This document shows positions 41,482 to 64,000 of a stretch of DNA of 64,000 nucleotides, one piece after another. Numbering within the stretch: the first letter of the stretch is position 1; each line of letters opens with the position of its first letter. The notes below the pieces were generated by a model. That model saw only the letters and a program-made list of their open reading frames with translations, did no database searches and was not told where the DNA came from. The stretch lies in the NCBI GenBank assembly GCA_017428925.1, contig JAFRPY010000010.1, positions 84,939 through 148,938 of the forward strand. The letters run 5' to 3'. A program made the position numbers and the translations under genes. Source of the DNA: Prevotella sp. (GTDB taxonomy: Bacteria; Bacteroidota; Bacteroidia; Bacteroidales; Bacteroidaceae).

Positions 41482-41572
41482 AAAATGAGAGAATGGGAAA
41501 TGGAGAAAATGAGAAATTGTAAATTGATAATCGCCGAAGGCGACAATTCTAAACTCTAAATTCTAAACTCTT
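41482..41572 (+). repeat. A/T-rich leader repeat, copy 1
   Basis: GGAAATGGAGAAAATGAG-type purine repeats, then AATTGTAAATTGATAAT, hairpin CGCCGAAGGCG, ACAATT, and heptamers TCTAAAC/TCTAAAT. Ends 12 bp before the MscS-type ATG. Confidence 0.85.
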
Positions 41573-41584
41573 AACTTAAGAAGA

Positions 41585-42779: not shown

Positions 42780-42879
42780 AAATGGAGAAAATGAGAAATG
42801 GAGAAAATGAGAAATTGTAAATTGATAATCGCCGAAGGCGACAATTCTAAACTCTAAATTCTAAACTCTAAAATCAGAA
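42780..42879 (+). repeat. A/T-rich leader repeat, copy 2
   Basis: Same order as at 41482: AATGGAGAAAATGAG repeats, CGCCGAAGGCG hairpin, TCTAAAC heptamers, then AAATCAGAA directly before the mutY ATG. Confidence 0.85.
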
Positions 42880-44642: not shown

Positions 44643-44739
44643 CGAAATCATCGGCAGATTATGGGACGCAAACTATGTTTACGGATGAATTTTATGATTT
44701 TTTATACTCTTGGAAAGGTTTTAAAAACTTGGAAATCCC

Positions 44740-44747
44740 TATTTTTG
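44740..44747 (+). promoter_or_regulatory. -7 box for the GTPase/SEDS/PBP cluster
   Basis: TATTTTTG fits TAnnTTTG, 17 bp before the ATG at 44765. It lies inside the longer open frame from 44675 and so argues for the later start. Confidence 0.5.
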
Positions 44748-44764
44748 CACAAAATATTCATGAA

Positions 44765-47620
44765 ATGAAGAAATATTCCGTAGCCACATTGCTGATTTTG
44801 CTGCTGATAGCCCTTTGTCTGCTGATGCTTGGAAGGGTGCATCGCCGTCTCGTTGTCTCTATCAACGGGTTTCACCAGCATGCCAGTTCAATCACCATTG
44901 GCAGTGGCAACTCGGGCATTTGTTTCCATAAGGTTCCTGAAGATTTCATAAAGGTCACCCACCAGCAGGGAAGCTTCTCGTGGGAAGTCAATCCCCGATA
45001 CTTGAAGGCCGACTCCCTTTGTTATTATAAAGTGAACGGAAAGAATCCCAACCTGCATCCGATAGGCGAGGGCGACAGCATTGTGGTCAGCGTGGGAAAG
45101 AAAACGCTCAGTCTGAATCATGACCAGATAGAAGTTGCATTGAGCGGGATTACTTCCCAGTACGTGCTCCTGCGAAATGTGCTCGATATCGTCAATAATA
45201 GTCAAGATCAAGCCGTAAGGCTTAAGGATGACCACGGGCTGAAATCGTTTCTCTGGCGTACGCGTAGTCAGCACCTTTGGGGCACTTCTTATGGTGACTG
45301 GCAGCTGGTGATTCTCGACTGCCGAACCCGTTTGATAGGTGACTCGGGGGAAATCGCCTATATGGACCATGGCACTACGCTCGAACTGACGCCCAACCAG
45401 GCAGATATCTTCAAAATTCAGTTCTTTTATATTGCCGACTACAGTTACCAGACGAATAAGGCTGACCGCCATTCGCTTAACATCGATGGGGTGAATTATC
45501 AGGCCAAGGCTATGCTCAGCACCACTGAATGGACTGCGGGACATGCTCTGATAAAACCTTCTGCCAAAGAAGGACTCGACGTTTTCTTCCCCAAGGCCGT
45601 CACGTATGTGGAAGATCTCGACACCCTGCGCTCGTTTATGAAGTCGAGTACAAATATGCTAACCATGATGCAGATGGACGGCTCGTTTCCTGTGGCACGC
45701 AATCTCTATGTGCCTCATTTCTCGGGAGCCGTCAGTCAATACATCTGCAACATTTTCCTCGATAACGACAGCGTAATGCTGCGCAACGGTGAAACAACAC
45801 TGAAAGTAAAGACGGGGTGGAACCTGCTTCCCTCCCTGCAAAAGACCACTTTCCGCAGTGCGCAACATGAGGAACTGTTCGTCAGTTGCGGAATCATCAA
45901 CTATCGTTTCATTCTTTCCTATCTGTGGCTTCCGCTGGCAATCTTCTTGATGATAATCTTAGTGTGGCCTTGGCTCACCGACACTTCTAAAATTGTGCAG
46001 CGAAGGGGGCTCAACACTCGTCGCAATGACCTCACGCCTTATTTCCGCACAATTACCTTTCTGGCCTTTGCCTATTGCGTCTGCAAAGTGATGATAACTT
46101 TCAAGTTGTCGTACTCTTTTCCCTATTTCGAAGAACTCACTGGGGGCATCACAGTTTCGGCAGCGTTGATGCTGATGCTTTTCTTCATTGTTTCGTTGAT
46201 ACTGAACCGCGATTTCCTGACGGCAACTCTTCGCAACCGTCAGCGGGCTCATCGCCATTGGATAGCCTTGGGACTGTCAGCTCTTGGTGTGCTGCTCTGC
46301 TATATTGCCATGCGATGGATGGACAGCAACTATAATGCTCCTTTTCTCAACGCCTATCTGCCTGACGACCTTTACAGTATAAATCTTTTGAAATGGCAAG
46401 AACTGAGCGGCATGAACGATTTGCATCGCAGCATTCCTTACAGTCTGCTGTTTGCCAATCTTACGGCAATGGTCATACTTTTCGTAATGACACTTCCTGT
46501 CGTCCGCGATATGAAGAATCCAATAGAGGGATGGATGTCGCGGTACTATGCCCTTGTCGATAAATGGGCCTCATCCCTGACTCTTGGGATGGGAGAAAAC
46601 ACCACCACTGTTATGGAGGGGACTTCTCATGTGCTGCTTTTCCTACTTAAATACGCATTGGTGCCGTTGTTGCTGGTGTTCTTGGTGTCATTGCTGCCAG
46701 GAAACTTCGCCACCGCTTTCATAACGCTGTTTCTTATCATCGGCATGAGTTGGACGCTCTCCAATATCACTTTCAAGCATGGGCGCATAGTGGCCTTTGT
46801 GGAAATGATTGTCGTTGCCTTGCTATTCGTCATGGCAGCGGCGGTGAAGGCCGATATGGGATATACGACCAACCTCTTTGGCATCTTCTTCGCTGTCATA
46901 CTTTTCTATTTCATGCAGGAACGCGGCGGTTACGATTTCGGTCATCAGCAGGCCAACAGGTTGGAAAGACGGTGGATTCCGCGGCTAATCATTCTCTCCG
47001 TCATACTTGTCTTCTCGGTGCCAATGCTGTTATCGAGGCTGCTCGATACAGAGAAAGTGGCCTATAGCCGAGCCACCCGAAGATTCAATATGTATTCGCA
47101 GTTTGAAAAATACCGCAATTCAGGCTATCGCTATGCGTTGAGCGATACCGAGTTTATGACCGTGATGGTGCATTATATGTATAACATCAGCGGAAAAGAC
47201 CCGCTCTCCAACGAGCATCACTTCCTGCATCCGTCCGTGTCGTCAGGTCAGTCGCCGGTAGTACTCAACGATGTGTCGCTGCAGGGTGCATTCTTCGGAG
47301 CCTACGGACTTCTGGCTTATATTGTTTATTTCGGATTGCTTGCCTTGCTGGCATGGCTTGTGTTGACCTATAGTTTCCATGAACCCAGTGGTATCCTGCA
47401 TTCCCAGTTGCGTTGGCGGGTATTGGCAGTGCTGATGTGGGTAGGCACGACGCTCTATCTTTACATCTCCTATTTGGGACAATTGCCGTTTACTGGCCGA
47501 CTGAACCCTGGTTTTGGTGTTGATTCCGTTGGTGAGATGCTTGAAACGGCGCTGCTGCTTTCGTTCATGACGGCAACGGCACTGAAAATTGAAAAAGTAA
47601 ATAATAAAAATGGATATTAA
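44765..47620 (+). CDS. Large membrane protein: FHA-like extracytoplasmic part plus SEDS (RodA/FtsW)-like region
   Basis: 951 aa. One membrane helix (YSVATLLILLLIALCLLMLG), then about 370 beta-rich residues with SSITIGSGNSGICFH, SFSWEVNPRYLK and KVNGKNPNLHPIGEGDSIVV, resembling an FHA fold. From residue about 390 there are ten or more membrane segments. The last third lines up with RodA: FEKYRNSGYRYALSDTEF (cf. GYNVHQSEIAIGS), VSLQGAFFGAYGLLAYIVY (cf. GEEEGFLGS) and LPFTGRLNPGFGVDSVGEM (cf. IGIPLPFFSYGGSS). I infer a divergent lipid II polymerase. First gene of the cluster; overlaps the next by 11 bp. Confidence 0.7.
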   Translation: MKKYSVATLLILLLIALCLLMLGRVHRRLVVSINGFHQHASSITIGSGNSGICFHKVPEDFIKVTHQQGSFSWEVNPRYLKADSLCYYKVNGKNPNLHPIGEGDSIVVSVGKKTLSLNHDQIEVALSGITSQYVLLRNVLDIVNNSQDQAVRLKDDHGLKSFLWRTRSQHLWGTSYGDWQLVILDCRTRLIGDSGEIAYMDHGTTLELTPNQADIFKIQFFYIADYSYQTNKADRHSLNIDGVNYQAKAMLSTTEWTAGHALIKPSAKEGLDVFFPKAVTYVEDLDTLRSFMKSSTNMLTMMQMDGSFPVARNLYVPHFSGAVSQYICNIFLDNDSVMLRNGETTLKVKTGWNLLPSLQKTTFRSAQHEELFVSCGIINYRFILSYLWLPLAIFLMIILVWPWLTDTSKIVQRRGLNTRRNDLTPYFRTITFLAFAYCVCKVMITFKLSYSFPYFEELTGGITVSAALMLMLFFIVSLILNRDFLTATLRNRQRAHRHWIALGLSALGVLLCYIAMRWMDSNYNAPFLNAYLPDDLYSINLLKWQELSGMNDLHRSIPYSLLFANLTAMVILFVMTLPVVRDMKNPIEGWMSRYYALVDKWASSLTLGMGENTTTVMEGTSHVLLFLLKYALVPLLLVFLVSLLPGNFATAFITLFLIIGMSWTLSNITFKHGRIVAFVEMIVVALLFVMAAAVKADMGYTTNLFGIFFAVILFYFMQERGGYDFGHQQANRLERRWIPRLIILSVILVFSVPMLLSRLLDTEKVAYSRATRRFNMYSQFEKYRNSGYRYALSDTEFMTVMVHYMYNISGKDPLSNEHHFLHPSVSSGQSPVVLNDVSLQGAFFGAYGLLAYIVYFGLLALLAWLVLTYSFHEPSGILHSQLRWRVLAVLMWVGTTLYLYISYLGQLPFTGRLNPGFGVDSVGEMLETALLLSFMTATALKIEKVNNKNGY

Positions 47621-48713
47621 GAAGATACTGAATTTCCTGAAACTGTTTATACTGCTTAAAGCCTACTGGGTGTTCCCCGCGCTCTATCTGTTGGGGGCAA
47701 TGGTCAGTTATTTCTTTACCGACGGCAGTTTCTCGTTCCCTGCACTGGTGTTTTCCACAGTGCTCGGTGCCCTTGTCTATTCCGTCACACGTTCATGGCT
47801 GTCCCACGAATACGACACCGACGAACTTGACTTTATCGGACTTAGCGAAGAGGATGACCCTGACAACCGGAAGACCAATGTATTGGACTTTTTCCGTGGA
47901 ATGCCATATTGGGAGAAAATACTTTGGGTGGTGTCAGTAATCATGCTCGTTGTGGCAACATTTATGACTGCCGGCGGTCTGGCCATCATCTTCAGGCACG
48001 ACATCAGCACGCTGATGTATATCGTTGCGGCTACGCTGATGGTGGCTTTCTTGGTGCTTCTCATGATGATAGCTCGCCGCCGTGTCATCATCGGCATCGT
48101 GTTGCTTTATATCCTGCTGATGGTGCCTACAGGCTTTCTTTTTACCCATGAATATATTTACTCTTCGATGATGACCGATCGCGACGTACGTCTTTCTCGT
48201 TCGTTTATCGAAACCAAGCAGTCGCAACTCCATCAGCTTAGCAATGTGCTCGATGATAATGCAGGGAGTCAGAAAAAAGGCAGTCGGTTAGCAGAAGTGA
48301 AGCGGCAGGTGGAATCACTCTATTCACAGACAGGTGAACTCCAGGCAATGATGGACGAAGCCAACTGGCTCAACATCAGCGACGAAGAGCTGTCATCTTT
48401 CGTTTCTAAGGCCCGTTTGCTGCAGCTTCAGTTGGAAGAGATTGTCAAAACCAATGAGGTACGCAACCATAAGCGCATCCAGGCAGACGACGAACTGACC
48501 AAGCGTTTTTTCAACAACATGGCCGATAGGGAAGAAAATCGTGTCAATGGCGTGAAAGCCATGCTCAAACAGGCTTCTGGTAAGCAGCCTAAGGTGGAGA
48601 GCTATAATAAGTCAGCGTTGAAAGTGAGCATGCTGGTAGCTGCCGTTATCTGCTATTTGCCGCTGGTGCTTGCCATGCTGGTGGCCATGAGCCGTAAAAG
48701 AAGTGATGAGTGA
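47610..48713 (+). CDS. Membrane protein with extracytoplasmic coiled coil
   Basis: 367 aa. Four or five membrane segments in the first 190 residues (LKAYWVFPALYLLGAMVSYF, ILWVVSVIMLVVATFM, MYIVAATLMVAFLVLLMM, IIGIVLLYILLMVPTGFL), then about 140 residues of charged coiled coil (ETKQSQLHQLSNVLDD through VRNHKRIQADDELTKRFF) and a final membrane helix VSMLVAAVICYLPLVLAMLV. Resembles a scaffold linking membrane partners. No family recognised. Coupled by overlap to the SEDS-like gene. Confidence 0.7.
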   Translation: MDIKKILNFLKLFILLKAYWVFPALYLLGAMVSYFFTDGSFSFPALVFSTVLGALVYSVTRSWLSHEYDTDELDFIGLSEEDDPDNRKTNVLDFFRGMPYWEKILWVVSVIMLVVATFMTAGGLAIIFRHDISTLMYIVAATLMVAFLVLLMMIARRRVIIGIVLLYILLMVPTGFLFTHEYIYSSMMTDRDVRLSRSFIETKQSQLHQLSNVLDDNAGSQKKGSRLAEVKRQVESLYSQTGELQAMMDEANWLNISDEELSSFVSKARLLQLQLEEIVKTNEVRNHKRIQADDELTKRFFNNMADREENRVNGVKAMLKQASGKQPKVESYNKSALKVSMLVAAVICYLPLVLAMLVAMSRKRSDE

Positions 48714-48728
48714 GTGATAAGTAATTCG

Positions 48729-51212
48729 ATGCAAACGCTCCATGTAAATATATTGCCACTGAGTCTGAAGCAGGACGAACAACAGTCCTATCAGAATTTC
48801 CTGACGGCCATCGGGCAGATGGCTGAGAGGAAGTATTGGAATGGCAAGCGTGTGGCACCTACGCTCAGCATGGATGGTAGCGACCTCACGGTTCAGGGTG
48901 GCCGTCGGCATCTTTCGCCCCACACCATCCATTTCATCCACAGTTCATTGAACCCCTCTGAGCTAACGGATGAAGACCGTGCCCGTGAATGGATGGAGGC
49001 TTTCGAGGTGCTTGTACTGGTGTGCGATGCCCGTGAACTGCTTGAAGAGAAGTCCCTTCGCCACCTGATGACGCGCTATCGTAGCGCCATGAATGTACAC
49101 AAACGCTATCAGGATGCCATCCTGCTGCTCACAGGCGTCGAACAGGTCATGGATATTGTTCCCGGCCGCAATTATACGCACACCATCTTCGGGATGAATG
49201 CCGCCTTCGGCTTGAAGTCCTATAATGGTACTGCCCTGAAGCCTGAGTATCAGCAAGTTTGGAATCGTGTGAGCGATTTGCTGCTGGCACAGAACAAAAT
49301 GTACTTCCGCCTGCGTTCAGGCAAGACAACTGTCAGTCTGCCCACCTATCTTACCTGCCAGAGCCCCGACGTTCCCCTTTCGGGCTATCTCGAACTGCTT
49401 ATGCTGTTCTTCCGCAGGCTGATGACCGACGATAATGTTTATTTTTCAAATATAGGAACAAAAAGAAGATATAATATGCCATTTAATATCAGTAACGTTT
49501 CGAAGATTATTTCAGGCCGCGAGCGGCATGTACGTCTGGCTGTCATCGGGGCAACCTCAAGCGGCAAGACTTATCTGCTCAGCGATTTCGTCGTCGCCAT
49601 GCAGTATCTGGGCTATCGTCCGCTTAACGACATGGATGCCGAGGTCTACCATCGTCCGGCCTCCAACTTTATCAACGATGTGCAGAATCCCGATTCGGGA
49701 ATCACCAAGACGCCCGTTTATGTCTGTCGGAACTACAACCAGTATTCGTCCATATTCGTCAGCTGCAAGAACAGCGACCGCCGTATCCGTGTCGACTTCG
49801 TCGATGTACCGGGCGAGGTGGTGGTAAAGGACAGCCTGCTTGAGTTTCAGGCCATTATGGAGTCGATGCTTGCCAGCAAGTCGAAGCATTTCATCGAGCG
49901 GATATGGCAGCAGGAGGGCGATGTCTCTGTCATAAAGACAGTGGAGTTCGACGGGCGTAAGCCAATGGAAGACGCATCAACCCCGGTCACCACGACCAGT
50001 GCCTCGGGCATCGACCTCATCGGAACGGCATCGGCGGGTTCGTCGCTCTTCGGTAACGACAAGAAGATTGGTCGCCGCACACTGGAGTATGTTTCTACCG
50101 ACAACCGGCTGGACGCCCTCGCCAAGAGTGGTTTCGAGGAAACCAAGAAGTCGGGCCGCCATATCAATGCCCGCGAGCTGTTTATGCACTTCGTCGAGTA
50201 CGACACCGATACGGCCATCCAGGCCATCTACGATGCATGGGACTTCCTGAACATCGATTCACGCATCACCGACAACAATGCCTCTGGCAGCGACCTCTCG
50301 GCAGGCATCAGCCTGAGCGACGACAACCGTACGCGCTTCATGAATGTCTATAAGAAGCATTTCTATTTTCATTATTATACCTACAACGCTACCGACGTGG
50401 TGGTCTGCGACAAGTGTGCGCTGCCGGCATCAGTCGTAGAAACCCGGGGCGACAACGATGTGTTCATGTCCATGATTCGTGCTCTCTCGGCCCTTACCAG
50501 TTTCAAGGAACTCAAGAAGAAACGTTGGTATATGGCATTCAAGGGCATCGACAGCATCATGCAGGAGCGCTATTTCCATCTGCTCTACCAGCAGACTAAG
50601 GACCTTAACCTGGTCTATTCTTTCTTCATGATGCTCTATAAGCGCAAGTTCATTGATTTGCCCAAACTCAGCGAGGCGGTCGACAATCCCTTTGGCGAGG
50701 CCACGACCGACAATTTCGACGACAGTATGGGAACTGCAGAAGACTTGCACGAATTACTTACGGGCCGTAACGTTTCCGAAAAGGTGCTCGCGGCATGCCG
50801 TGTCCATCTTCAGGATATAGGGAAATACTGGAAGTCGTATTTCAAGGAACAGGAAGAATACCGCCAGGCCACTCGCGATACTATCTCCGCCCATATAGAG
50901 AACCGCCTGAAGGCATTCTTGAATATCCCCGACGTGGTGAGGCCTGAACCGGAAGACGAGATGATGAAAATGTTGGGCATGCCGCCTCATGTTTACCTGA
51001 CGGCCACTCCGATTGACTATAATTTCTGCATCGACGGCCATGACCCGCAAGACAAGACCAAGTTCACGGGAGAGTCGCAGGATCCCGAGAACCGCATCTG
51101 CTTTGGTACGCTCCAACTGGCCTCTGATATCCTTCAGAGGGAAAACATGGACCTCGACGACGACTATGCCGACACGGGCATGATACTGAACTATTTCTAT
51201 GGTAACCGATAG
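48729..51212 (+). CDS. Large P-loop GTPase-like protein (possible double-GTPase)
   Basis: 827 aa from the ATG at 48729; a GTG at 48714 would add five residues. Residues 274-281 GATSSGKT follow a hydrophobic strand (HVRLAVI): a Walker A/G1 motif. D359-V-P-G362 in VDFVDVPGEVV fits the GTPase G3 motif. The first 250 residues have GTPase-like strands without a P-loop (FEVLVLVCDARELLEEKS, YQDAILLLTGVEQVMD), which suggests a degenerate first domain as in the double-GTPase proteins of Bacteroidetes conflict systems. NATDVVVCDKCALP may hold the G4 position. No membrane helix. Nucleotide specificity is inference. Confidence 0.7.
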   Translation: MQTLHVNILPLSLKQDEQQSYQNFLTAIGQMAERKYWNGKRVAPTLSMDGSDLTVQGGRRHLSPHTIHFIHSSLNPSELTDEDRAREWMEAFEVLVLVCDARELLEEKSLRHLMTRYRSAMNVHKRYQDAILLLTGVEQVMDIVPGRNYTHTIFGMNAAFGLKSYNGTALKPEYQQVWNRVSDLLLAQNKMYFRLRSGKTTVSLPTYLTCQSPDVPLSGYLELLMLFFRRLMTDDNVYFSNIGTKRRYNMPFNISNVSKIISGRERHVRLAVIGATSSGKTYLLSDFVVAMQYLGYRPLNDMDAEVYHRPASNFINDVQNPDSGITKTPVYVCRNYNQYSSIFVSCKNSDRRIRVDFVDVPGEVVVKDSLLEFQAIMESMLASKSKHFIERIWQQEGDVSVIKTVEFDGRKPMEDASTPVTTTSASGIDLIGTASAGSSLFGNDKKIGRRTLEYVSTDNRLDALAKSGFEETKKSGRHINARELFMHFVEYDTDTAIQAIYDAWDFLNIDSRITDNNASGSDLSAGISLSDDNRTRFMNVYKKHFYFHYYTYNATDVVVCDKCALPASVVETRGDNDVFMSMIRALSALTSFKELKKKRWYMAFKGIDSIMQERYFHLLYQQTKDLNLVYSFFMMLYKRKFIDLPKLSEAVDNPFGEATTDNFDDSMGTAEDLHELLTGRNVSEKVLAACRVHLQDIGKYWKSYFKEQEEYRQATRDTISAHIENRLKAFLNIPDVVRPEPEDEMMKMLGMPPHVYLTATPIDYNFCIDGHDPQDKTKFTGESQDPENRICFGTLQLASDILQRENMDLDDDYADTGMILNYFYGNR

Positions 51213-51331
51213 GGAGAGTGAAGAAAATGAGAAATGGAGAAAATGAGAAATGGAGAAAATCAGAAATTGTAAATTGATAATCGCCGAAGGCGACAATTCT
51301 AAAATCTAAATTCTAAACTCTAAAATCAGAA
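51213..51331 (+). repeat. A/T-rich leader repeat, copy 3
   Basis: GAAATGGAGAAAATGAG units, AATTGTAAATTGATAAT, CGCCGAAGGCG hairpin, TCTAAAT heptamers and AAATCAGAA before the GAP1-like ATG. Within 35-120 nearly identical to the copies at 41482 and 42780. Confidence 0.85.
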
Positions 51332-53794
51332 ATGAAGATAACGATTGACAATAAGGTATATGGGTCGCAGACCAAGGTGATGGGCGATGGGGTGTTGTCC
51401 TACTCGAAGGGAATCTCCAGCGCTGCCGACTCTCTGGGAACGCTCTTCTCGGGACAACTGCCACGCGACTATGCCTCGCTGATTTTCCTCAACAATCCCG
51501 ACAATGGGCTGCACACGGTGATTCATGCCCAGGGAGCCTTCACCACGTTCGAGGAACAGGGGCGGTCTTACGACATGCGCGCCATCTATGAGATTACGGA
51601 TGCCGAGTTCCGCAAGATGGGCAGTCTGCACGAACCACTCATCGCCGCGCTCGACAAACTTCATCGCTACGAGCAGACGGAATATGGGGCTTCGAATCAG
51701 GTAGAAATGGGGCCCACCCCCGACCCCTCCCGAGGGGAGGGGAGTCTTACAACTGATGAGCAGTTGCTGCGGCGGTGTATCGTCTATTGTGTGGTGAATA
51801 ATCGACAGTTGTTTATTCGTTTGGGCAACGACGAGAACTATTATGCCGACCAGGTGCGTCATTCCCGCAAATTGCACAGCTTGCTCAGGGCCATCGACTC
51901 GCTGCCAGAGGATTATCGTGGATTTGCATCTATGGGTTTTTCTGTCGACAGTTCTACCAGCGGCACACGTACGCTTGCCGACCATCTGCTCGTGATTGCC
52001 CATCACGATGATATTTCGCTATGGGGAAACGCTAAGGCTCAGGGGGTACTTCTCGACTGGAGGGGAGCCCAGCCCCAGCTCCTCCAGGAGCCCACCCCCG
52101 ACCCCTCCCGAGGGGAGGGGCTCCTCGCCTCTGTGTCCCCGCTCCTGCGTGGATTCTTGGGAACAATGGCCGTCACGAGGAGTCAGGTGTGCAGTATGTT
52201 CCAACTCATTCCGCAGAATATCGACAACGTCATTCGCGCCCAGCGTCCCGACCGCAACAGCCTGCTCATCCTTTCGGCTGCTTTCAAGGGCGGTAACGGC
52301 AGCTATCGTCATTTCGAAGTGGCACGCAAGATGCTGCCCTTCCTTGTGCAGGGTGTCATCATCAAGGATATCACTATTGCCGACATACTGAATGTCTATC
52401 CTCAGTTGCGCGACGAACTGCAGCCCACCGACTGGCAGTCGAGCTATAAGATTGCCGAGGCCTTGCGCGAAAATGGCGTGACCGATATCTCGAAGGTAAT
52501 GGATTTTGATGCCGAAAAATGGGACATCCGTACAATGGACCCGACCGCCTTCGACCGTCTGCGTCCTTTCTTGACAGATGCCCAGATGAAGACGCTACGG
52601 CGCAAAGCATTGCCTTTCTATTATGAGCAGCCGCCACTGCGGTGTGTGTTCGAGCGGCGAATGACCGAAGAAGAGGCCCGTGCGCTGCTCGACCATCTGT
52701 GGGATAACGACCGCGACAATTATTGTCAGTTCATCAACGATCAGAAGGTTGCCGCTACGGGTTTCCTCAGCCGCGAACCGCTCTGGCGCCAGAAATATGT
52801 GCTCCATAAGGTCAGTCAGGGAATACCGTTGGCTGAGATTCCTCCAGCAATCTGGGGACAGCAGAACGGACTTCTCGACGAAAGCCTTCTCCGATTGCTC
52901 GACGAGAACGGCATCTATCGAAAGAATGCGAACTTGCTTTCCGAGCATGTGGCCTTCTTCGAGCAAAAAGGTCGTCGCACCGAAGCCGTTGAACGCACCT
53001 ATACCTCGATTCTCAATACCAAGCTGCCACGGAATTTCGACGACCTGCTGGCAAAACTCAATGTACCAGTCGTGAGGGCGGAACATTTTGAGGGCATGAA
53101 GAATAACCCCCGGCTGCTCATTGACATTTGTGAGACGCCTCGGAAACTGTCGTTCGAGGCCTTTGCCGACCTTTACGATGCCGTCGGGAAAAAGAATAGC
53201 CAGTTGCCCGAAGGTCTTTTCGACGAAGCTTTCAGCCATTTTGCCAAGGGCTATCTGCGCGAGTGGTTCCGAAACGCACAGGCCTACGAAAGTCAGTATG
53301 TCAAGACCGTGATGCCTGCCTGTCGCCTCAACCGCACTCAGGAGAATGCCCGCCGTTATGTGGTAAGTCAGTTCGGGGAACTCCCTAAAAATGAACTTTC
53401 CGAGCTGGCACAGAAATTCGAGACAGCCTACAAGCACAAACCGCGCACGGCGAAGAACCAGCGCGAGTTTGTCCATAAGATGGAGGCTCTGGGCACTTCC
53501 ACGCCCGAGCTGCTCAAAGCGCTGAAAGAAAAGAGAATGACCACAAGTAACTTGGCAAATCTCTATAGGGAGAGCCGCAGTCTGAAGAATTGGGTGCAAA
53601 ATCATCTGGGTTTGGTGGCCTTCATTGCCGCGGCTGTGGTCGCCTTCGCCATCTTCATCCCCTTCTTGTTCCTCTCCGTTTTGTCACATCACTCTCCGAG
53701 TGCTACGCCTCCTCCCCGTACTGTTGTTCCCGATACCACGGTCACCGATACGTTACAGTCGCATAGTCGTTTGGACATAACTCCTAATTCCTAA
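51332..53794 (+). CDS. GTPase-associated protein, GAP1-like N-terminus, C-terminal membrane anchor
   Basis: 820 aa. The first 130 residues (TIDNKVYGSQTKVMGDGVLS, YSKGISSAADSLGTLFSGQL, YDMRAIYEITDAEFRKMG) resemble the GAP1-N1 domain described in GTPase-associated systems, a match from memory. The middle is all-helical with repeats of LRPFLTDAQMKTLRRKALPF kind. A membrane helix near the end (LVAFIAAAVVAFAIFIPFLF) is followed by a Pro/Thr-rich tail. Two palindromic repeats are translated in frame at residues about 127-139 and 252-265 as PTPDPSRGEG. Probable adaptor between the GTPase and the membrane synthase. Confidence 0.65.
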   Translation: MKITIDNKVYGSQTKVMGDGVLSYSKGISSAADSLGTLFSGQLPRDYASLIFLNNPDNGLHTVIHAQGAFTTFEEQGRSYDMRAIYEITDAEFRKMGSLHEPLIAALDKLHRYEQTEYGASNQVEMGPTPDPSRGEGSLTTDEQLLRRCIVYCVVNNRQLFIRLGNDENYYADQVRHSRKLHSLLRAIDSLPEDYRGFASMGFSVDSSTSGTRTLADHLLVIAHHDDISLWGNAKAQGVLLDWRGAQPQLLQEPTPDPSRGEGLLASVSPLLRGFLGTMAVTRSQVCSMFQLIPQNIDNVIRAQRPDRNSLLILSAAFKGGNGSYRHFEVARKMLPFLVQGVIIKDITIADILNVYPQLRDELQPTDWQSSYKIAEALRENGVTDISKVMDFDAEKWDIRTMDPTAFDRLRPFLTDAQMKTLRRKALPFYYEQPPLRCVFERRMTEEEARALLDHLWDNDRDNYCQFINDQKVAATGFLSREPLWRQKYVLHKVSQGIPLAEIPPAIWGQQNGLLDESLLRLLDENGIYRKNANLLSEHVAFFEQKGRRTEAVERTYTSILNTKLPRNFDDLLAKLNVPVVRAEHFEGMKNNPRLLIDICETPRKLSFEAFADLYDAVGKKNSQLPEGLFDEAFSHFAKGYLREWFRNAQAYESQYVKTVMPACRLNRTQENARRYVVSQFGELPKNELSELAQKFETAYKHKPRTAKNQREFVHKMEALGTSTPELLKALKEKRMTTSNLANLYRESRSLKNWVQNHLGLVAFIAAAVVAFAIFIPFLFLSVLSHHSPSATPPPRTVVPDTTVTDTLQSHSRLDITPNS
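51709..51747. repeat. Palindromic arm inside the GAP1-like gene, copy 1
   Basis: GGGCCCACCCCCGA then CCCCTCCCGAGGGGAGGGG. Read as GPTPDPSRGEGSL. Confidence 0.85.
52086..52125. repeat. Palindromic arm inside the GAP1-like gene, copy 2
   Basis: AGGAGCCCACCCCCGA, CCCCTCCCGAGGGGAGGGG, CTCCT; nearly identical to the copy 377 bp upstream and in the same frame (EPTPDPSRGEGLL). Confidence 0.85.
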
Positions 53795-53846
53795 CTCTAA
53801 ATTCTAAACTCTAAATTCTAAACTCTAAATTCTAAATTCTAAATTC
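53784..53846 (+). repeat. Heptamer tail of the leader repeat, copy 4
   Basis: About eight tandem TCTAAAY heptamers without the CGCCGAAGGCG hairpin, overlapping the GAP1-like stop and ending 6 bp before the GTG of the PBP gene. Confidence 0.8.
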
Positions 53847-53852
53847 AAAAAA

Positions 53853-56459
53853 GTGCCTAATCAGAGAATAGACAGAAACTGGTATACTCATTACCGCAAA
53901 CACATGATGGCTGTCGTCGTCCTCATCATTGCGGTCGTCCTTGGCACGACATTCTTCAAGGGATGCTCCGCCATTGGCAAAGACTCGCGCAAGGATGTCT
54001 ACACCCCCAGCGAAGACGATGGTTTCATCTACAAGGCCAACCTGTTGCTTCGTGAAATCATTGAGGATGCCAAGAAAGAAAATTCGCGCCGTCCGCAGAC
54101 TTTGCAGCAACTCAATGCCAAATATGGGGCACTGCATTTCGAACTGCCCTACAACTATGCCGAGGCTGCTGGCGGACGGGCTTCCGATATTCGTCTGGTT
54201 AGCATCAATCCCGATTCTATCCGTTCGTCGAGTCTCCGGAAGTTTTTTTACAACAGCGATTTGCCTGCCTTGCTCCTGAAACAGAAACAAAATCTTGGCC
54301 AGCGCATTTTCAACATAAAGTTCGAACGCGGAGGACTTGAGCTCAAGAGCATCCAGATGGTGCCTTCGATGTTCAAGCTGGCCTTGGTGAAAGACCCTTG
54401 GGAAGGAACCATCCTGGCACGTGAGAGCAGTCTGTTTCCCGAGCGCAACCATTGTTTCCTCACATGGGGCATGAATATGCTGCCCATCCGCATGAACGCG
54501 TCCAGTCAGGGCGACTTTATCGTTTCTGCCGATTTCGGTTCCAAGCGTTTCTCTCGTTTGGGCAAACCTGTCGACTATTATGACTGCTACCGTAAATACG
54601 GCAACGACAGCACGAAACTCATCATTAACCTTGGTGGCGACGGTAATTGTCTGAAGATAGAATACGTTGCTCGAGATAAGGTGCGCATCAAGACCGAAGG
54701 AAGCATTAGCTGCAGCACCCTCGACAGCATCGGGCAGGTGCGCCAGACCACTTTCAGCGAAGCCGGAAAGGGCAGTGTCGCCCACGAGTTCCGCAACAAC
54801 CTCAAACTCGTTGTCACCGATGCACAGGGCGCAAAGATTACCGAATTTGTGCTTACCCACCATAATCCCATGCTCAACCTCTCGATGGTGGTCAGCAGCA
54901 ATGCCGGCAAGATGCGCTATTTCGAGGGCAAGAATTTCACCGACCACTTCACTCAGCAAGTCATCCACGGCCTTTCGAGCACCATGCGGAATACCATTTT
55001 CCGCGATACCGTACAGCTCAGCATCGACCCGCTCCTTTCCGTCGCATTCGAAGAAGAACTGAAGAGCTACTGCGAGAATGTGCTCAAGAAGTCGCCCGAC
55101 ATTCATGCCTCTTCCACCGACCAGTGGGAACTGTCGATGACTGTCATGGATATGGCCACGGGCAACGTGCTCGCCGTGCCGTACTATCGTTCCGAAGACG
55201 ACCATGTGGACTACGATGTCGCCATAGGCCGCAAAAATCCCGCATTGCTTCGCCGCTATCTGGGTTCTGTCTTCAAACCCCTGCTCACGCTGGCCGCCGT
55301 CGAGGCCACACCTTCCCTCATCAGTCTCAACACCTTGGGCAAGTATTCGCTCGACCGCTCGTCCATCGTCCTCGGTAAAGATGGCAAGCCGAAATCGGCA
55401 AAGGCCACTTTTTATGGGACCGATATCGACGCATGGGCACTCTCCTCAAAGACGCAGGGCTTCTGGTTCGGTTCCCCGCGCATCGGAGAATATCTTGCCC
55501 ATTCCGATGACGTTTATCCCGTTGCGCTCACCGTGCTTTCACTGGCGGATGCCGACGGTACGAAACCGACCTACGATTTCTCACGCAGCAATGCCTTCGA
55601 CGGTAAGCTCATGTTGCAGAAAGACCCCGACCGCATCAATTGGACCGAGCAGCCGCTCATCCGCAATCTCGACCTGCTTTACGACCTGAAATCCTATAAT
55701 GACATCTTTGCCGACGACAGCCTGAACATGTCCTACTATCTCTGGCGCAACTTGCAGCTGAATGGCGACGACCAGTTTGGGCTCGACATCATCAACCCCG
55801 ACGTCACCGTCATGCACTATCAGAAACTCTACGACCAACCCCATAAGCTGAAAACCAATATTGTGCCTTGGGTTCTTGGCCAGGGCACCAACGAGTGGAA
55901 CTGTGTGAAACTGGCTGAGGCATGGACACGAATGCTCACCAAGCGCGAGGTGCGTGCCTCGTTCATCGACAAGCCCGATACCGTGCCCAGTCTTGTGAAT
56001 CGTCTGAAAACGAAGTCCAACACCAATCCAAACGAGGTGTGGAACAAATTCCTCGATGAACTCACCTATGCCCAAAGCCATTCACCCGGCTTGCTCACAC
56101 CGATGGACAATGCCGTGAAATCGCTCGGCCACGACCTCGTGCTTTTCTCAAAGACAGGAACGCCCAACAACTATGACCGTCCTGAATGGAAGACACTCGA
56201 TGGCCGCAGTCATTGGCTCGATGTGGGCATCTATTGCATGGGCCTCATGCCCTCCGCCTCCTATCAGCAAGTCCGTCAGGGAGGTAAGGCCAAAGGTCTG
56301 ATGTGTGTTATACGTATCACCCGCATCACCCGTCAGAAGCCGTCCGACGACGGTGTCTCGTCCACCCATGCCCGAAATTTCTTCTCGTCCAACAAGCGCC
56401 GCCTACAGAAATTCTACGACATGACGCGTCAGTACATCAGTCTTTCAAGCACCCAATAG
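53853..56459 (+). CDS. Divergent penicillin-binding protein (transpeptidase-like)
   Basis: 868 aa, GTG start. One N-terminal membrane helix (MMAVVVLIIAVVLGTTFF), about 400 residues of unrecognised extracytoplasmic sequence, then a transpeptidase-like domain. MTVMDMATGNVLAVPYY matches the strand before the active site; S472-V-F-K475 in YLGSVFKPLLTLAA is SxxK; VLGQGTNEWNCVKLAEAW matches the GQG region of PBPs; K767-T-G in LFSKTGTPNN is the third motif. The second motif is not SxN but appears as S551-D-D in LAHSDDVYPVAL. It is probably the cross-linking partner of the SEDS-like protein. The 3' end overlaps the convergent ATPase gene by 23 bp. Confidence 0.75.
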   Translation: MPNQRIDRNWYTHYRKHMMAVVVLIIAVVLGTTFFKGCSAIGKDSRKDVYTPSEDDGFIYKANLLLREIIEDAKKENSRRPQTLQQLNAKYGALHFELPYNYAEAAGGRASDIRLVSINPDSIRSSSLRKFFYNSDLPALLLKQKQNLGQRIFNIKFERGGLELKSIQMVPSMFKLALVKDPWEGTILARESSLFPERNHCFLTWGMNMLPIRMNASSQGDFIVSADFGSKRFSRLGKPVDYYDCYRKYGNDSTKLIINLGGDGNCLKIEYVARDKVRIKTEGSISCSTLDSIGQVRQTTFSEAGKGSVAHEFRNNLKLVVTDAQGAKITEFVLTHHNPMLNLSMVVSSNAGKMRYFEGKNFTDHFTQQVIHGLSSTMRNTIFRDTVQLSIDPLLSVAFEEELKSYCENVLKKSPDIHASSTDQWELSMTVMDMATGNVLAVPYYRSEDDHVDYDVAIGRKNPALLRRYLGSVFKPLLTLAAVEATPSLISLNTLGKYSLDRSSIVLGKDGKPKSAKATFYGTDIDAWALSSKTQGFWFGSPRIGEYLAHSDDVYPVALTVLSLADADGTKPTYDFSRSNAFDGKLMLQKDPDRINWTEQPLIRNLDLLYDLKSYNDIFADDSLNMSYYLWRNLQLNGDDQFGLDIINPDVTVMHYQKLYDQPHKLKTNIVPWVLGQGTNEWNCVKLAEAWTRMLTKREVRASFIDKPDTVPSLVNRLKTKSNTNPNEVWNKFLDELTYAQSHSPGLLTPMDNAVKSLGHDLVLFSKTGTPNNYDRPEWKTLDGRSHWLDVGIYCMGLMPSASYQQVRQGGKAKGLMCVIRITRITRQKPSDDGVSSTHARNFFSSNKRRLQKFYDMTRQYISLSSTQ

Positions 56460-57877: not shown

Positions 57878-58042
57878 CGTTTGGTTATTTAGCGTGATTC
57901 GATAGAGTCGAGAGTTGCAACGATTTGTTGCTGCTCGGAGAGAGGGTGTTCTAATATCAATGTTTTCTTAGGATATTGTAAAATATTTTAGTTTTAAAAA
58001 GAAACGTTTCCGAATGATTTCTTTGAGATGAAAACAGGGAGT

Positions 58043-58152
58043 AATAAGCGTTTTTAACCCGAATAATAAGGATTTGACGAGCAGATAATAATGATTTCGC
58101 GACGAAATAATAAGGGTTTCATCTTAAAAAGATAAGGATTTGAAGTCCAACT
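58043..58152. repeat. Five-unit 22-bp periodic array
   Basis: Units start at 58043, 58065, 58087, 58109 and 58131. The first 11 positions follow AATAAGGATTT with up to two changes; the last 11 differ in every unit. It ends 18 bp before a strong hairpin. Confidence 0.8.
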
Positions 58153-58170
58153 CAGGCAGAGTTGCAAAGC

Positions 58171-58207
58171 AAAGCCCTATGATTTGAAATGCAAATCATA
58201 GGGCTTT
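58171..58207. terminator. Perfect 16-bp hairpin, probable terminator
   Basis: AAAGCCCTATGATTTG, loop of 5, CAAATCATAGGGCTTT. T-rich on the plus-strand side (TTTT), A-rich start. It could end the minus-strand small-ORF transcript or a plus-strand transcript through the 22-bp array. Confidence 0.75.
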
Positions 58208-58289
58208 TACGGATAGAAAAACGGGTAAAATAGGCCTGTTACAGCCCCAAACTGTCCTCAAAATCTGCAAGAATAGCATTTCAGCACGG

Positions 58290-58409
58290 TTATAAGGAAT
58301 GCAACGCCTGGCCATGCGAACAGATGTTGTTGCGTGGGCGAGCAGCAGCTGAAGCGGATACCACGACGAATGAAGGACTACTGATGTTTGTCATGTTAAA
58401 GATTTTCAT
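58290..58409 (-). CDS. 39-codon ORF of unknown function
   Basis: Reads MKIFNMTNISSPSFVVVSAS, then AAARPRNNICSHGQALHSL, then TAA. It has a -7 box 45 bp upstream (58454-58461) and a perfect hairpin 80 bp downstream, so it forms a self-contained unit of about 280 nt. No signal peptide or membrane helix. Could be a leader or small peptide, or an RNA with a chance ORF. Not recognised. Confidence 0.4.
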   Translation of the reverse strand: MKIFNMTNISSPSFVVVSASAAARPRNNICSHGQALHSL

Positions 58410-58453
58410 AATTATTTATGATTTAAGCGGTTCATAATGTCCATATTTTTCTG

Positions 58454-58461
58454 CAAAAATA
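58454..58461 (-). promoter_or_regulatory. -7 box for the 39-codon ORF unit
   Basis: TATTTTTG on the minus strand; -33 element not clear. Confidence 0.35.
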
Positions 58462-58569
58462 AGTACGAACCGCCCAGTGAGTTTGGACACAAGGGCGTAA
58501 AGTTGACAATATGCAGAAACATTGAAGGGAATTTTTCCATATAATTTAGGTTTAATCAGTTTTTTTTCG

Positions 58570-58577
58570 TATATTTG
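58570..58577 (+). promoter_or_regulatory. -7 box for the GIY-YIG remnant and ORF6N gene
   Basis: TATATTTG fits TAnnTTTG, 78 bp before the ATG at 58656. Confidence 0.5.
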
Positions 58578-58655
58578 CGCTCAATTACGAACAATCTATG
58601 GATTGAACACATAATCTCATTAATATCAAAGGAATGAGAAGATAAGACCAATAAT

Positions 58656-58860
58656 ATGAACAACAAAGAACCTGGATATGTTTATATACTGACCAATCCC
58701 AGCTTTCGCGAGGATTGGGTAAAGATTGGCAAGAGTAGTCGTCCTTTGGATGTGCGCTCAAAGGAATCATCACGGTGCTTCTGGTGCCTATCAAGGTGCC
58801 AAATATTTCTCGTATAATGGAAAAGTGCTGGATGAGATTAGGAAAGAAAAAGAGAAATAA
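58656..58860 (+). pseudogene. GIY-YIG nuclease-like remnant (internally deleted)
   Basis: Begins with a GIY-YIG N-terminus, PGYVYILTNPSFREDWVKIG followed by KSSRPLDVRSKE, then loses frame. A second frame supplies a C-terminal piece HHGASGAYQGAKYFSYNG and KVLDEIRKEKEK ending at 58860, like DUF4357-type tails of such nucleases. The middle of the protein is missing, so the gene looks deleted and dead. It directly precedes the ORF6N gene by 13 bp. Confidence 0.65.
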
Positions 58861-58873
58861 AGAACTTAGAATT

Positions 58874-59839
58874 ATGGCTGAGAAGAAAAAAAAGAATGAT
58901 GAAAATATAGAACTGGTCGCAAATTGCGACCACATTGAAAAGGTGGATGCAAATTGCAACCACCCAGAAAAAGGCGAGATAACTCTTAGCCAACATGACA
59001 TTGAGAAACTTATCATTACAGTTAGAGGCGAGCAGGTACTTATAGATCAGGATATTGCACGGCTATATGGTGTGACAACAAAACGCTTGAACCAACAGGC
59101 AAACCGCAATTCCGCTAGATTCCCAAGTAACTTTCGTTTTGAATTGACAAAAGAAGAGCGTGACGAGGTGGTTGCAAATTGTGACCACCTCCAATCCTTG
59201 AAATTTCGCCCTACCTTACCTTATGCTTTCACAGAACAGGGAATAGGTCAACTTTCATCAGTAGTACACAGTCAGGAAGCGATAGAAAGGAGTATTATCA
59301 TCATGAATGCTTTTGTGGCTATGCGCCGTTTTATTGTGCAGAATGCAGGAATATTAATGCGCATAGCAAATTTGGAGCGCCATCAGATAGAAACGGATGA
59401 GAAGATTGATTTGATTCTTGACAAGATGGATGAACGCTCGCCTAAACTCCTGCCAGAGCAGATATTTGGCACTGGTTGTGTATGGGATGCATGGGCTTAT
59501 GTGTCAGAATTAGTGAGGAGTGCAAAGAAGCGGATTGAGTTGATTGATAACTTTGTTGATGACCGTGTGCTGTCGTTGCTAATGAAACGAGAAAAGAATG
59601 TTTCGGCTACAATTCACTCGCGCTTCACCAAGGACTTTCTGACAGACTTGGAGAAACACAATAAGCAATATGATGAAGTGAAGTTTGTGCAGCTGCCACA
59701 CAAGAATCACGACCGCTTCCTTATCATCGACGATACCGTCTATCTGCTTGGTGCGAGTATTAAGGACATGGGTAACGGGTTGTGTGCTGTAACAAAACTG
59801 ACGGTGACACCTGAGACTGTGCTGGGGCTGTTAAAATAG
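58874..59839 (+). CDS. ORF6N-domain DNA-binding protein with PLD-like C-terminus
   Basis: 321 aa from the ATG at 58874 (MAEKKKKNDEN). ORF6N domain at residues about 40-145: RGEQVLIDQDIARLYGVTTK, NQQANRNSARFPSNFRFEL and LPYAFTEQGIGQLSSVVHS. C-terminal part has FGTGCVWDAWAYVSELVRSA, KKRIELIDNF and HDRFLIIDDTVYLLGASIKD, a phospholipase D-like layout. Such proteins are phage- and island-borne regulators or toxins. The peptide ANCDH/ANCNH occurs three times (58918, 58951, 59174 region) because of a repeated palindromic DNA word. Confidence 0.82.
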   Translation: MAEKKKKNDENIELVANCDHIEKVDANCNHPEKGEITLSQHDIEKLIITVRGEQVLIDQDIARLYGVTTKRLNQQANRNSARFPSNFRFELTKEERDEVVANCDHLQSLKFRPTLPYAFTEQGIGQLSSVVHSQEAIERSIIIMNAFVAMRRFIVQNAGILMRIANLERHQIETDEKIDLILDKMDERSPKLLPEQIFGTGCVWDAWAYVSELVRSAKKRIELIDNFVDDRVLSLLMKREKNVSATIHSRFTKDFLTDLEKHNKQYDEVKFVQLPHKNHDRFLIIDDTVYLLGASIKDMGNGLCAVTKLTVTPETVLGLLK

Positions 59840-59899
59840 GATAAGTGAAATTAGGGCTTATGCCTGTGAGTTTGTAAACGTTACAATAATGCGTTAATT

Positions 59900-62770: not shown

Positions 62771-62836
62771 CGGTTAACTCCAAAGCACTTAGTGGGTAAC
62801 TGCAATATAGATAGTGGGAACTCGAAATGAGATGGG

Positions 62837-62869
62837 TTTGAACGAAATAGAAAAAAAGATATATCTTTG
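62837..62869 (+). promoter_or_regulatory. Promoter of the AlbA_2/RecG-like gene
   Basis: TTTG (62837-62840), 21 bp, TATCTTTG (62862-62869), 15 bp before the ATG. Confidence 0.65.
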
Positions 62870-62884
62870 CAAACGAAATAGATT

Positions 62885-63886
62885 ATGGCACTGGCAATAA
62901 ACATAGAAGACCTGTTGAATAAACAGAGGATTGAGTCCAATAGAATAGAATTCAAGAAGGGTTGGAATCCGGCAAGCATATACCATAGCGTGTGTGCTTT
63001 TGCTAATGATTTCGATGATCTTGGTGGTGGATATATCTTGGTCGGTGTGGATAGCGATGATGATACAGGATTGGCTATCCGTCCCGTTGAAGGGGTGCCA
63101 ATCGAGAATATTGATGGCATTCTTCAGGATATGGTGCGCTATAACAACAAGATCTCACCGTATTATATGCCGAGAACAAGCGTTGAAGAGGTGGACGGAA
63201 AACATGTGCTGGTAATATGGTGTCCTGCTGGCATCAATAGACCATATTCTGTCCCTGAGAATGTGACGGCAAAGAGTGGCAGTAAGGAGTACTTCTATAT
63301 CCGTAGCGGTACGAGCAGTATCATTGCCAAGGGCGAAGTACTGGACGAACTGCGGGAGTTGGCAAGTCGTGTACCGTTTGATGAAAGGGGTAATCCTGAC
63401 ATCAAAGTGGAAGATATATCAACGCTGCTGCTTCGCGAATACCTGGTGAAGGTTGGCAGCAAGCTGGCTAACGAACTATACGAAAAGCCGCTAACCGAGA
63501 TTCTGGAGCAGATGGACTTGTTTGTTGGTCCATCAGAGAACCGTATGCTGAGGAACGTTGCTGCTATGATGTTCTGCGAGAATCCAAGTAAGTTCTTCAA
63601 ACGGACACAGGTAGAGGTCGTGTTCTTCCCTGAAGGACGATTGGAGAATCCTAACAATATTTACGAAGCACCAATTATCACTGGCTCTGTAACACAGATT
63701 ATCGAGCGAACGCTGGAGTATCTAAATCGAATGGTGGTGATGCAGACCATCATTAAGCCCAAGAATGATAACCACAGTATCAAGTTCTATACATATCCTT
63801 ACCAGGCATTGGAGGAAAGTGTGACGAACTCGATTTTATGTAAACATTTACATAAGATGCCGTATGTAAAGTCTTGCATTATGTAA
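62885..63886 (+). pseudogene. AlbA_2 (Schlafen-like)/RecG-like regulator, truncated by insertion
   Basis: 333 codons remain. N-terminal AlbA_2 domain: QRIESNRIEFKKGWNPASIY, CAFANDFDDLGGGYILVGVD and YYMPRTSVEEVDGKHVLVIW; the second half leads into the ATPase part of this family (YPYQALEESVTNSI), which normally continues VNA-x-x-HRDY and another 150 or more residues. Instead, from about 63833, the sequence switches to A/T-rich palindromic DNA and the frame ends 17 codons later (LCKHLHKMPYVKSCIM). The gene is therefore interrupted, not complete. Confidence 0.75.
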
Positions 63887-64000
63887 AGTCTGCTACTATT
63901 CATATTTGCTTTTTAATTGTTACTCAGCACGTTATCTTCGTATAAATCCTCACAGACTTTACATAATATCTCAATGTTTCGTCTGTAAGCTCTTCAAGTA
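63836..64000. mobile_element. End of an inserted element (continues past the window)
   Basis: Starts with perfect palindrome TTATGTAAA-CA-TTTACATAA (63836-63855), then direct repeats TATGTAAAGTCT at 63863 and 63880 and an inverted copy AGACTTTACATA at 63954. Five copies of the TATGTAAA word in 130 bp suggest recombinase or transposase binding sites at an element terminus. The minus strand from 64000 to 63924 (LEELTDETLRYYVKSVRIYT) could be the end of an element gene, but frame choice is uncertain. Confidence 0.5.

Follow-up and report, generated by a model that had tools for sequence, protein, structure and literature searches.

A block of five genes on the forward strand of a 64,000-nucleotide stretch of Prevotella sp. 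DNA (the window; contig JAFRPY010000010.1, corresponding to G000 contig C68, 84939-148938) is a rare conserved cassette whose last gene, p5, is predicted from its sequence to encode a transpeptidase-domain protein of the penicillin-binding protein (PBP) type. The other four genes encode a polytopic membrane protein (p1), a smaller membrane protein (p2), a P-loop nucleoside triphosphatase (NTPase; p3) and an adaptor-like protein (p4). The likeliest explanation, which we regard as evenly poised between right and wrong, is that the cassette is an accessory, switch-controlled module of peptidoglycan synthesis, separate from the housekeeping RodA/PBP2 and FtsW proteins and devoted to a conditional task, a proposal in which both the gating of wall synthesis and the purpose of the cassette are inferred. 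The five open reading frames (ORFs), described in the initial annotation as a near-continuous plus-strand series, are indeed all present and stop-free over 44675-56459 [Table 1]; p1 and p2 overlap by 11 nucleotides, p2 and p3 abut, and gaps of 119 and 58 nucleotides separate p3 from p4 and p4 from p5. An AlkZ-related gene upstream and an AAA_14/DUF4143 gene downstream both lie on the opposite strand, so that the five genes make up a single-direction block. No family reached its cut-off in any of the five proteins in a Pfam scan.

The expectation that these genes occur together elsewhere was borne out, their order (p1-p3-p4-p5) being kept across genera in the window and in all seven homologous loci with enough flanking sequence (L006, L007, L013, L015, L016, L017 and L054). 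L006 and L007, the close p3 matches, come from Prevotellaceae/Prevotella assemblies; L054 comes from a genome related at the phylum level only (G497), and its p1 and p5 are 26% and 31% identical to those of the window. In L013, the N-terminal domain of p4 and p5 form one ORF of 1220 residues, which holds the only p4 domain seen there, and in G159 the genes are scattered over contig ends (p1-p2-p3-p4 pieces in L098, the N-terminal part of p1 in L099, p5 in L014). Searches for p5 identified 2 carriers among 60 near relatives, 5 among 399 family genomes (E <= 0.001), 1 among 295 order genomes (E <= 1e-20), 2 among 395 phylum genomes (E <= 1e-30) and 1 among 86 genomes in the family of G497, each number including the query's or centre's own genome. 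A p1 profile (E <= 1e-10) retrieved the same five of the 399 family genomes as the p5 search (G000, G060, G090, G159 and G352). The genes flanking L006 (a SLOG-like gene and NAGLU) are unlike those flanking its counterpart in the window; the cassette therefore occupies different sites. A mobile-element origin was considered and rejected: the plasmids searched held no p5 relative, none of 13 pattern matches for p5 among viral contigs was confirmed, no p1 relative was present in the phage records searched, and the GC content of the cassette (48-53%) falls inside the 45-56% range of the remaining window before 56 kb, so that composition gives no sign of recent import.

The host appears otherwise equipped for wall synthesis. 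Pfam identified a canonical PBP2/RodA pair at 6-9.5 kb of the window, in agreement with the mrdA/rodA pair first noted there, and besides the cassette this genome has two PF01098 (SEDS) genes and five transpeptidase-domain matches, canonical genes of both families among them, for which reason the task of the cassette is probably not a housekeeping one. A short transpeptidase-domain protein with SxxK and KTG motifs (a 390-residue frame) is encoded elsewhere in this genome (G000:C57:100411-101304; L074).

Evidence for the nature of p5 comes from its C-terminal part, a predicted transpeptidase domain. PF00905 matches seven of eight homologues at E <= 1 (best 1.4e-6) and exceeds its curated cut-off in the p5 proteins of G060 and G352, the window protein itself matching weakly (E 0.018; 14.7 bits against a cut-off of 22.1). 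In HHalign comparisons, p5 matched 12 class-B-like PBPs with a probability of 92.6% (score 66.5, maximum of 40 permutations 24.3; residues 385-485) and 11 class-A-like PBPs with a probability of 53.0% (score 47.6, permuted maximum 27.1), the two sets having been grouped by score and length without a check for GT51. Together with the Pfam matches and the invariance of SxxK and KTG, the two motifs on which the initial annotation relied, this profile-profile match supports p5 as a transpeptidase-domain protein. Pfam scans of p5 and its homologues gave no match to GT51 and, since p5 has a single N-terminal transmembrane (TM) segment as well, it appears most like a class B PBP, albeit a very divergent one. 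A number of results count against this assignment. Both the Pfam and the HHalign matches are confined to the part of the domain around SxxK, a search of PDB sequences with p5 gave no PBP match, and PBP_1a_fam, a class A model, gives a weak match to the window protein (0.00042; 19.2 against a cut-off of 508.75 bits). The second motif, moreover, is SxD, with the serine retained and aspartate in place of asparagine; some PBPs carry SxD.

The identity of p1 is more debatable. Hydropathy indicates one N-terminal TM segment and about 13 further hydrophobic segments, with approximately 350 residues in between in which there are none. Three of these further segments come after a long conserved loop; the last of them is below threshold in the window protein and was seen only in L007, L016, L015 and L054. 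The homologues are 26-80% identical, mean column identity being 61% over the C-terminal 280 residues vs 48% over the whole protein. The region following the first TM segment (residues 60-130, 44852-45064; TIG...NSDI...W.VN...KVNG) is reminiscent of an FHA-like beta domain, and no FHA profile matched it in the Pfam scan. Mutations in FtsW residues P196/L198/G199, Y242/R243/R246 and D297 and in several residues of extracellular loop (ECL) 5 are dominant-negative according to PMC8765783, and the invariant motifs of p1, among which is also G817-Y818, follow the order of these essential residues, the correspondence having been drawn by eye and post hoc. A pattern built on the ordered motifs retrieved 11 of 403 ORFs, nine of them p1 entries and two of them SEDS proteins; it recovers only 2 of 25 SEDS and is thus shaped to p1. 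A looser pattern found 4 of 25 SEDS, five of eight p1 proteins and 2 of 368 background ORFs, namely the p1 fragment L098 and a 2534-residue frame of the window.

Sequence statistics do not favour the view, put forward in the initial annotation, that the last third of p1 is RodA/FtsW-like. No Pfam or NCBIfam model of SEDS proteins and no SEDS sequence from the PDB matched p1. Against 13 SEDS sequences the HHalign score was reached by 8 and by 3 of 100 permuted controls, and with a larger reference set (25 sequences, or 7 of these) by 11, 4 and 2 of 60 in three runs and by 13 to 26 of 100 in four further runs. In all four later runs and in one of the three earlier ones, HHalign ranked R..GY first among the aligned segments and placed it in the register expected, in no case significantly; the other two earlier runs aligned p1 with the first SEDS segments, outside the motif region. 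The GG signature of ECL5 was not seen in p1 (PFTGRLxPGxGVD vs PxxGxxxPxxSxGG in SEDS), nor was an ECL2-like motif, and an AlphaFold2 model of residues 405-981 based on three sequences was uninformative (predicted local distance difference test score 40.3, predicted template modelling score 0.27). SEDS identity as something proven by sequence statistics is accordingly rejected and, given the empty family and PDB searches, the non-significant HHalign scores and motif patterns that are either shaped to p1 or loose, we advance the assignment of p1 as a SEDS-type protein as a reasoned hypothesis.

Alternatively, p5 may be a sensor of wall damage or of beta-lactams, its transpeptidase-like domain binding a ligand and p4 and p3 relaying the signal, with p1 as a polytopic protein other than a polymerase (O-antigen-ligase-like, a transporter or a channel). 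The BlaR/MecR logic of a ligand-binding sensor provides the model for such a scheme, which would accommodate both the strong divergence of p5 from working PBPs beyond the motifs and the lack of SEDS statistics for p1. We consider it unlikely given that SxxK, S551, D553 and KTG do not vary even among highly divergent homologues, as expected of an enzyme, and that the GH25 lysozyme neighbours found in three loci (see below) fit a role in remodelling.

The candidate switch is p3, a P-loop NTPase without TM segments that has a 260-residue N-terminal extension. GATSSGKT and DVPG, the motifs for which it had been singled out, are both present, and their cores are invariant in all eight aligned rows [Table 1]. 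Its profile-profile similarity to the DO-GTPases is significant mainly at the P-loop: HHalign gave a score of 59.6 with DO-GTPase2 in an alignment of 33 P-loop columns (100 permutations reached at most 25.9) and of 37.4 with DO-GTPase1 in one of 92 columns that runs from Walker A to Walker B (permuted maximum 25.5), the yardstick for the p3 and p4 comparisons being a classic system, L057 from genome G482, and its plasmid relatives L058-L064. The proposed DO-GTPase likeness is therefore upheld as far as the P-loop similarity and the Walker B glutamate are concerned and finds no echo in Pfam, neither PF19975 nor PF19993 matching p3. (N/T)KxD is the general guanine-specificity motif of GTPases. 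Since D364 is replaced by Asn in four of the eight rows (L015, L016 and both L017 copies) and no clear NKxD is evident in the p3 alignment, GTP is a ligand that we infer only. The N-terminal extension was tried as a degenerate second GTPase and rejected, 56 of 60 permuted controls scoring as high or higher. The p3 gene of L054 (11904-14381, minus strand) is broken into separate ORFs of 608 and 213 residues, either through an assembly frame break or through a true gene split.

In p4, a conserved N-terminal domain with weak GAP1 similarity is followed by a C-terminal TM segment, the membrane anchor noticed at the outset, and a short tail. HHalign aligned p4 with GAP1 over 208 columns collinear from residue 1 (score 26.6, maximum of 100 permutations 24.5; P 0.054) with a probability of only 1.0%. 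The description of p4 as GAP1-like thus draws support from a collinear match that scores above all 100 permutations and is weakened by this low probability and by the lack of any match to the Pfam GAP1-N models (PF20012, PF20013). PF19994 (GASH) matched none of p1-p5, and the same model does match in L057. As no PF20013 (GAP1-N2) member was found among 99 genomes, p4 was compared with GAP1-N1-type proteins only. On these grounds p3 and p4 may work like a DO-GTPase/GAP1 pair. Within the p4 frame, two copies of a GC-rich 34-nucleotide repeat (51709-51742 and 52087-52120, 97% identical) add peptides around PTPDPSRGEG that L007 and L006 do not have. Two genes downstream of the p4-p5 fusion, L013 encodes a 304-residue protein (15395-16309) that has no Pfam match. 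Near its C-terminus, this protein has a hydrophobic stretch and a tail rich in Thr and Pro, and it might supply the C-terminal part of p4 that the fusion lacks.

The resemblance of p3 and p4 to such pairs raises the prospect of a conflict system of the DO-GTPase/GAP1 type with wall enzymes as its effector, in which infection or envelope injury would flip the switch, and the cell would be killed or sealed as wall synthesis or hydrolysis went out of balance. The rare and patchy distribution, the different flanking genes of the window and L006, the low-GC restriction/defence-like genes 2-7 kb downstream of the cassette in the window and, by comparison with PMC7159879, the Walker B glutamate, the two p3-like genes in L017 and the order of NTPase then adaptor are all compatible with this scenario. 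That we nonetheless hold it to be decidedly unlikely owes to the following: Pfam models for DO-GTPase, GAP1, GASH and FNIII were all without a match in p1-p5; PADLOC gave no match at E 0.05 or better in these proteins; relatives of p5 on plasmids and viral contigs and of p1 in phage records were not found; and the wall enzymes do not change from one observed locus to another, whereas the effectors of such systems are described as variable.

The remaining protein, p2, has several N-terminal TM segments, a probably helical middle and a C-terminal TM segment, and gave weak matches below cut-off to spectrin-like (0.0061) and Na-transporter (1.6e-5) families. Its profile finds L006, L007 and L098 and gave no match to the L054 protein, whose standing as a profile-recognised homologue was rejected, position and topology being all that links it to p2. 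HHalign relates p2 to the p2-like proteins of L100, L101 and L013 (score 32.1, permuted maximum 19.6; 0 of 60 as high). L100 and L101, which lie upstream of L017 and L016, respectively, have ahead of p1 a gene for a membrane protein resembling p2 and one for a second P-loop protein. This second GTPase has a TKxD motif and a hydrophobic segment with a further region beyond it; in L013 it is fused to the p2-like protein in a 729-residue product encoded downstream of p5, TKxD being present there too. Its HHalign score with DO-GTPase2 was 30.8, above all 60 permuted controls (maximum 19.9), but the Pfam scan gave no DO-GTPase match. L017 carries two p3-like genes. A GH25 lysozyme-family gene lies directly downstream of p5 in L015 and L016 (both of genus g26) and in L017 (E 1.8e-39 to 3.9e-43), the gene after p5 being something other than GH25 in the window, L006, L013, L014 and L054. 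In L054, p5 adjoins the gene for a 213-residue membrane protein (6814-7455, minus strand) that weakly resembles M50B peptidases (0.005, below cut-off).

An envelope-spanning machine, such as a secretion system or surface structure, might likewise make use of these parts, SEDS/PBP-like proteins and lysozyme then merely opening and resealing the wall. The many membrane anchors, GH25 in three loci and, in L100 and L101, a second GTPase with a hydrophobic segment and further region would suit such a machine. Among the operon genes and the flanking genes scanned, which represent part of the flanking ORFs, there is no recognisable secretion, pilus or outer-membrane component, and we judge this explanation highly unlikely.

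Returning to a module of peptidoglycan synthesis, a plausible mechanism can be outlined. Homology and the invariant SxxK and KTG motifs suggest that p5 would cross-link peptides in the periplasm. Its polytopic partner is probably p1, acting as a highly divergent SEDS-type polymerase; this partnership is suggested by the topology of p1, by the order of its active-site-like motifs, and by how closely the two genes co-occur and are linked in the operon. The motifs of p3 are those of a cytoplasmic P-loop nucleotide switch of the DxxGE type, presumably driven by GTP, and p4 may act as the membrane-anchored GAP1-like adaptor that couples this switch to p5, a coupling supported by the single ORF that unites the N-terminal domain of p4 with p5 in L013. 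A membrane scaffold would be provided by p2 and, in some lineages, the second membrane-linked GTPase and the GH25 lysozyme would complete a set for switching, synthesis and cleavage. The notion with which the analysis began, of a GTPase and GAP1-like adaptor gating a dedicated synthase, is plausible and partly supported in view of the PBP-type p5, the conserved cassette and the P-loop motifs, the SEDS statistics for p1 speaking against it. As for its use, the synthase might conceivably serve stress repair, envelope defence or a specialised wall structure. In its fullest form, to which we give somewhat less than even credence, the cassette would be a self-contained synthase gated by a nucleotide switch, in which a P-loop switch and GAP1-like adaptor would directly control, from the cytoplasm, a PBP transpeptidase and a deeply divergent polymerase of SEDS type, and would be carried as an accessory cassette within one phylum (by Prevotella-like and more distant members), some lineages adding the second GTPase and a dedicated lysozyme.

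Table 1. Genes, motifs and membrane segments of the cassette (window positions; residue numbers in parentheses).
Feature	Position	Strand	Remarks
p1	44675-47620	+	981 residues from first ATG, 951 from 44765
p1 D727-x-G729	46853-46861	+	Invariant 8/8; candidate counterpart, by eye, of FtsW ECL3 P196/L198/G199 (PMC8765783)
p1 Y797-x-R799-xx-R802-R803	47063-47083	+	Invariant 8/8; candidate counterpart of FtsW Y242/R243/R246 (same source)
p1 D866 in PVxLND	47270-47272	+	Invariant; candidate counterpart, by eye, of FtsW catalytic Asp D297 (same source)
p1 LPFTG (937-941)	47483-47497	+	PFTG invariant; lies ahead of last hydrophobic segment; candidate counterpart of SEDS ECL5 P-x-x-G
p2	47610-48713	+	367 residues
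p3	48714-51212	+	832 residues, GTG start; L006 and L007 begin at Met6
p3 P-loop GATSSGKT (279-286)	49548-49571	+	G279 and S282-S283-G284-K285 invariant in 8/8 rows
p3 Walker B DVPGE (364-368)	49803-49817	+	P366-G367-E368 invariant 8/8
p4	51332-53794	+	820 residues
p4 C-terminal TM	53612-53668	+	Hydropathy
p5	53853-56459	+	868 residues, GTG start
p5 N-terminal TM (17-35)	53901-53957	+	Hydropathy
p5 SxxK (S472-K475)	55266-55277	+	Invariant in 9/9 sequences
p5 second motif S551-D-D	55503-55511	+	SxD, not SxN; S-N-D in L054; S551 and D553 invariant 9/9
p5 KTG (767-769)	56151-56159	+	Invariant 9/9

The shorter form of p1 in Table 1 corresponds to the start of its homologue in L006, which begins at the equivalent of Met31 (44765). 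A 75-nucleotide repeat is present in three copies in the window (41500-41574, 42798-42872 and 51250-51324; 96-99% identical to the first), the last of which sits between p3 and p4, and 14-nucleotide AATTCTAAACTCTA-like units are found before p5 too (window 53772-53865). Further downstream, GC content falls to about 0.365 over positions 58001-64000, which hold genes for ORF6N (58775), for a 956-residue protein with type I/II methyltransferase profile matches (59900) and for a Schlafen/AlbA_2 protein (62885) that matches a pAgo profile at 4.9e-10. This stretch, at the end of the contig, looks like a distinct segment of defence or mobile character.

If the proposed module is real, a wall synthase would be switched by a cytosolic NTPase from its own operon and not placed by the divisome or elongasome, and the SEDS family would extend far past the reach of current profiles. 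Switches of the DO-GTPase/GAP1-like kind would gain a concrete and testable output, peptidoglycan synthesis, and what they do would become measurable in anaerobic bacteria with beta-lactam probes and muropeptide analysis.

In the cassette, as in the SEDS-class B PBP pairs (RodA-PBP2, FtsW-FtsI), the gene for a polytopic protein accompanies that for a transpeptidase-domain protein with a single TM segment. To our knowledge, p2-p4 have no counterpart in the canonical pairs. Also in common are the PF00905 matches of p5 homologues and ordered candidates in p1 for the FtsW residues listed in PMC8765783, whereas p1 differs in being missed by PF01098 and in its extra TM segments, large N-terminal soluble-looking region and lack of the GG signature. 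Among the papers listed by the literature searches, judged by titles and abstract openings, none described such a combination of wall enzyme and P-loop switch. Sections 27-29 of PMC7159879 name no SEDS or PBP component in DO-GTPase-GAP1 systems, and the words 'penicillin', 'transpeptidase' and 'RodA' are absent from its main text. PMC11237479 reports psp operons that contain a DO-GTPase protein and, separately, the fusion of an FtsW/RodA-type TM domain to HAAS.

The classic GAP1-N1 systems (L057 from G482 and plasmid loci L058-L064) resemble the cassette in the order of GTPase(s) then GAP1 and, unlike the window genes, the parts of L057 match Pfam at E 2.6e-28 to 3.6e-74; their outputs are phosphorylase (L057) or caspase (L058, L061, L062) domains. 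According to PMC7159879, DO-GTPases have a glutamate in Walker B and occur as two paralogues in 38% of systems, and GAP1 is typically encoded downstream and, in GAP1-N2 systems, frequently fused to TM segments. The cassette differs from these systems in having no Pfam DO-GTPase1/2, GAP1-N1/N2 or GASH matches, and shares with them a gene for a P-loop NTPase with glutamate in Walker B and, after it, a larger gene for an adaptor (here p4, with its weak collinear GAP1 similarity and C-terminal TM segment), a second GTPase in some lineages and a patchy distribution.

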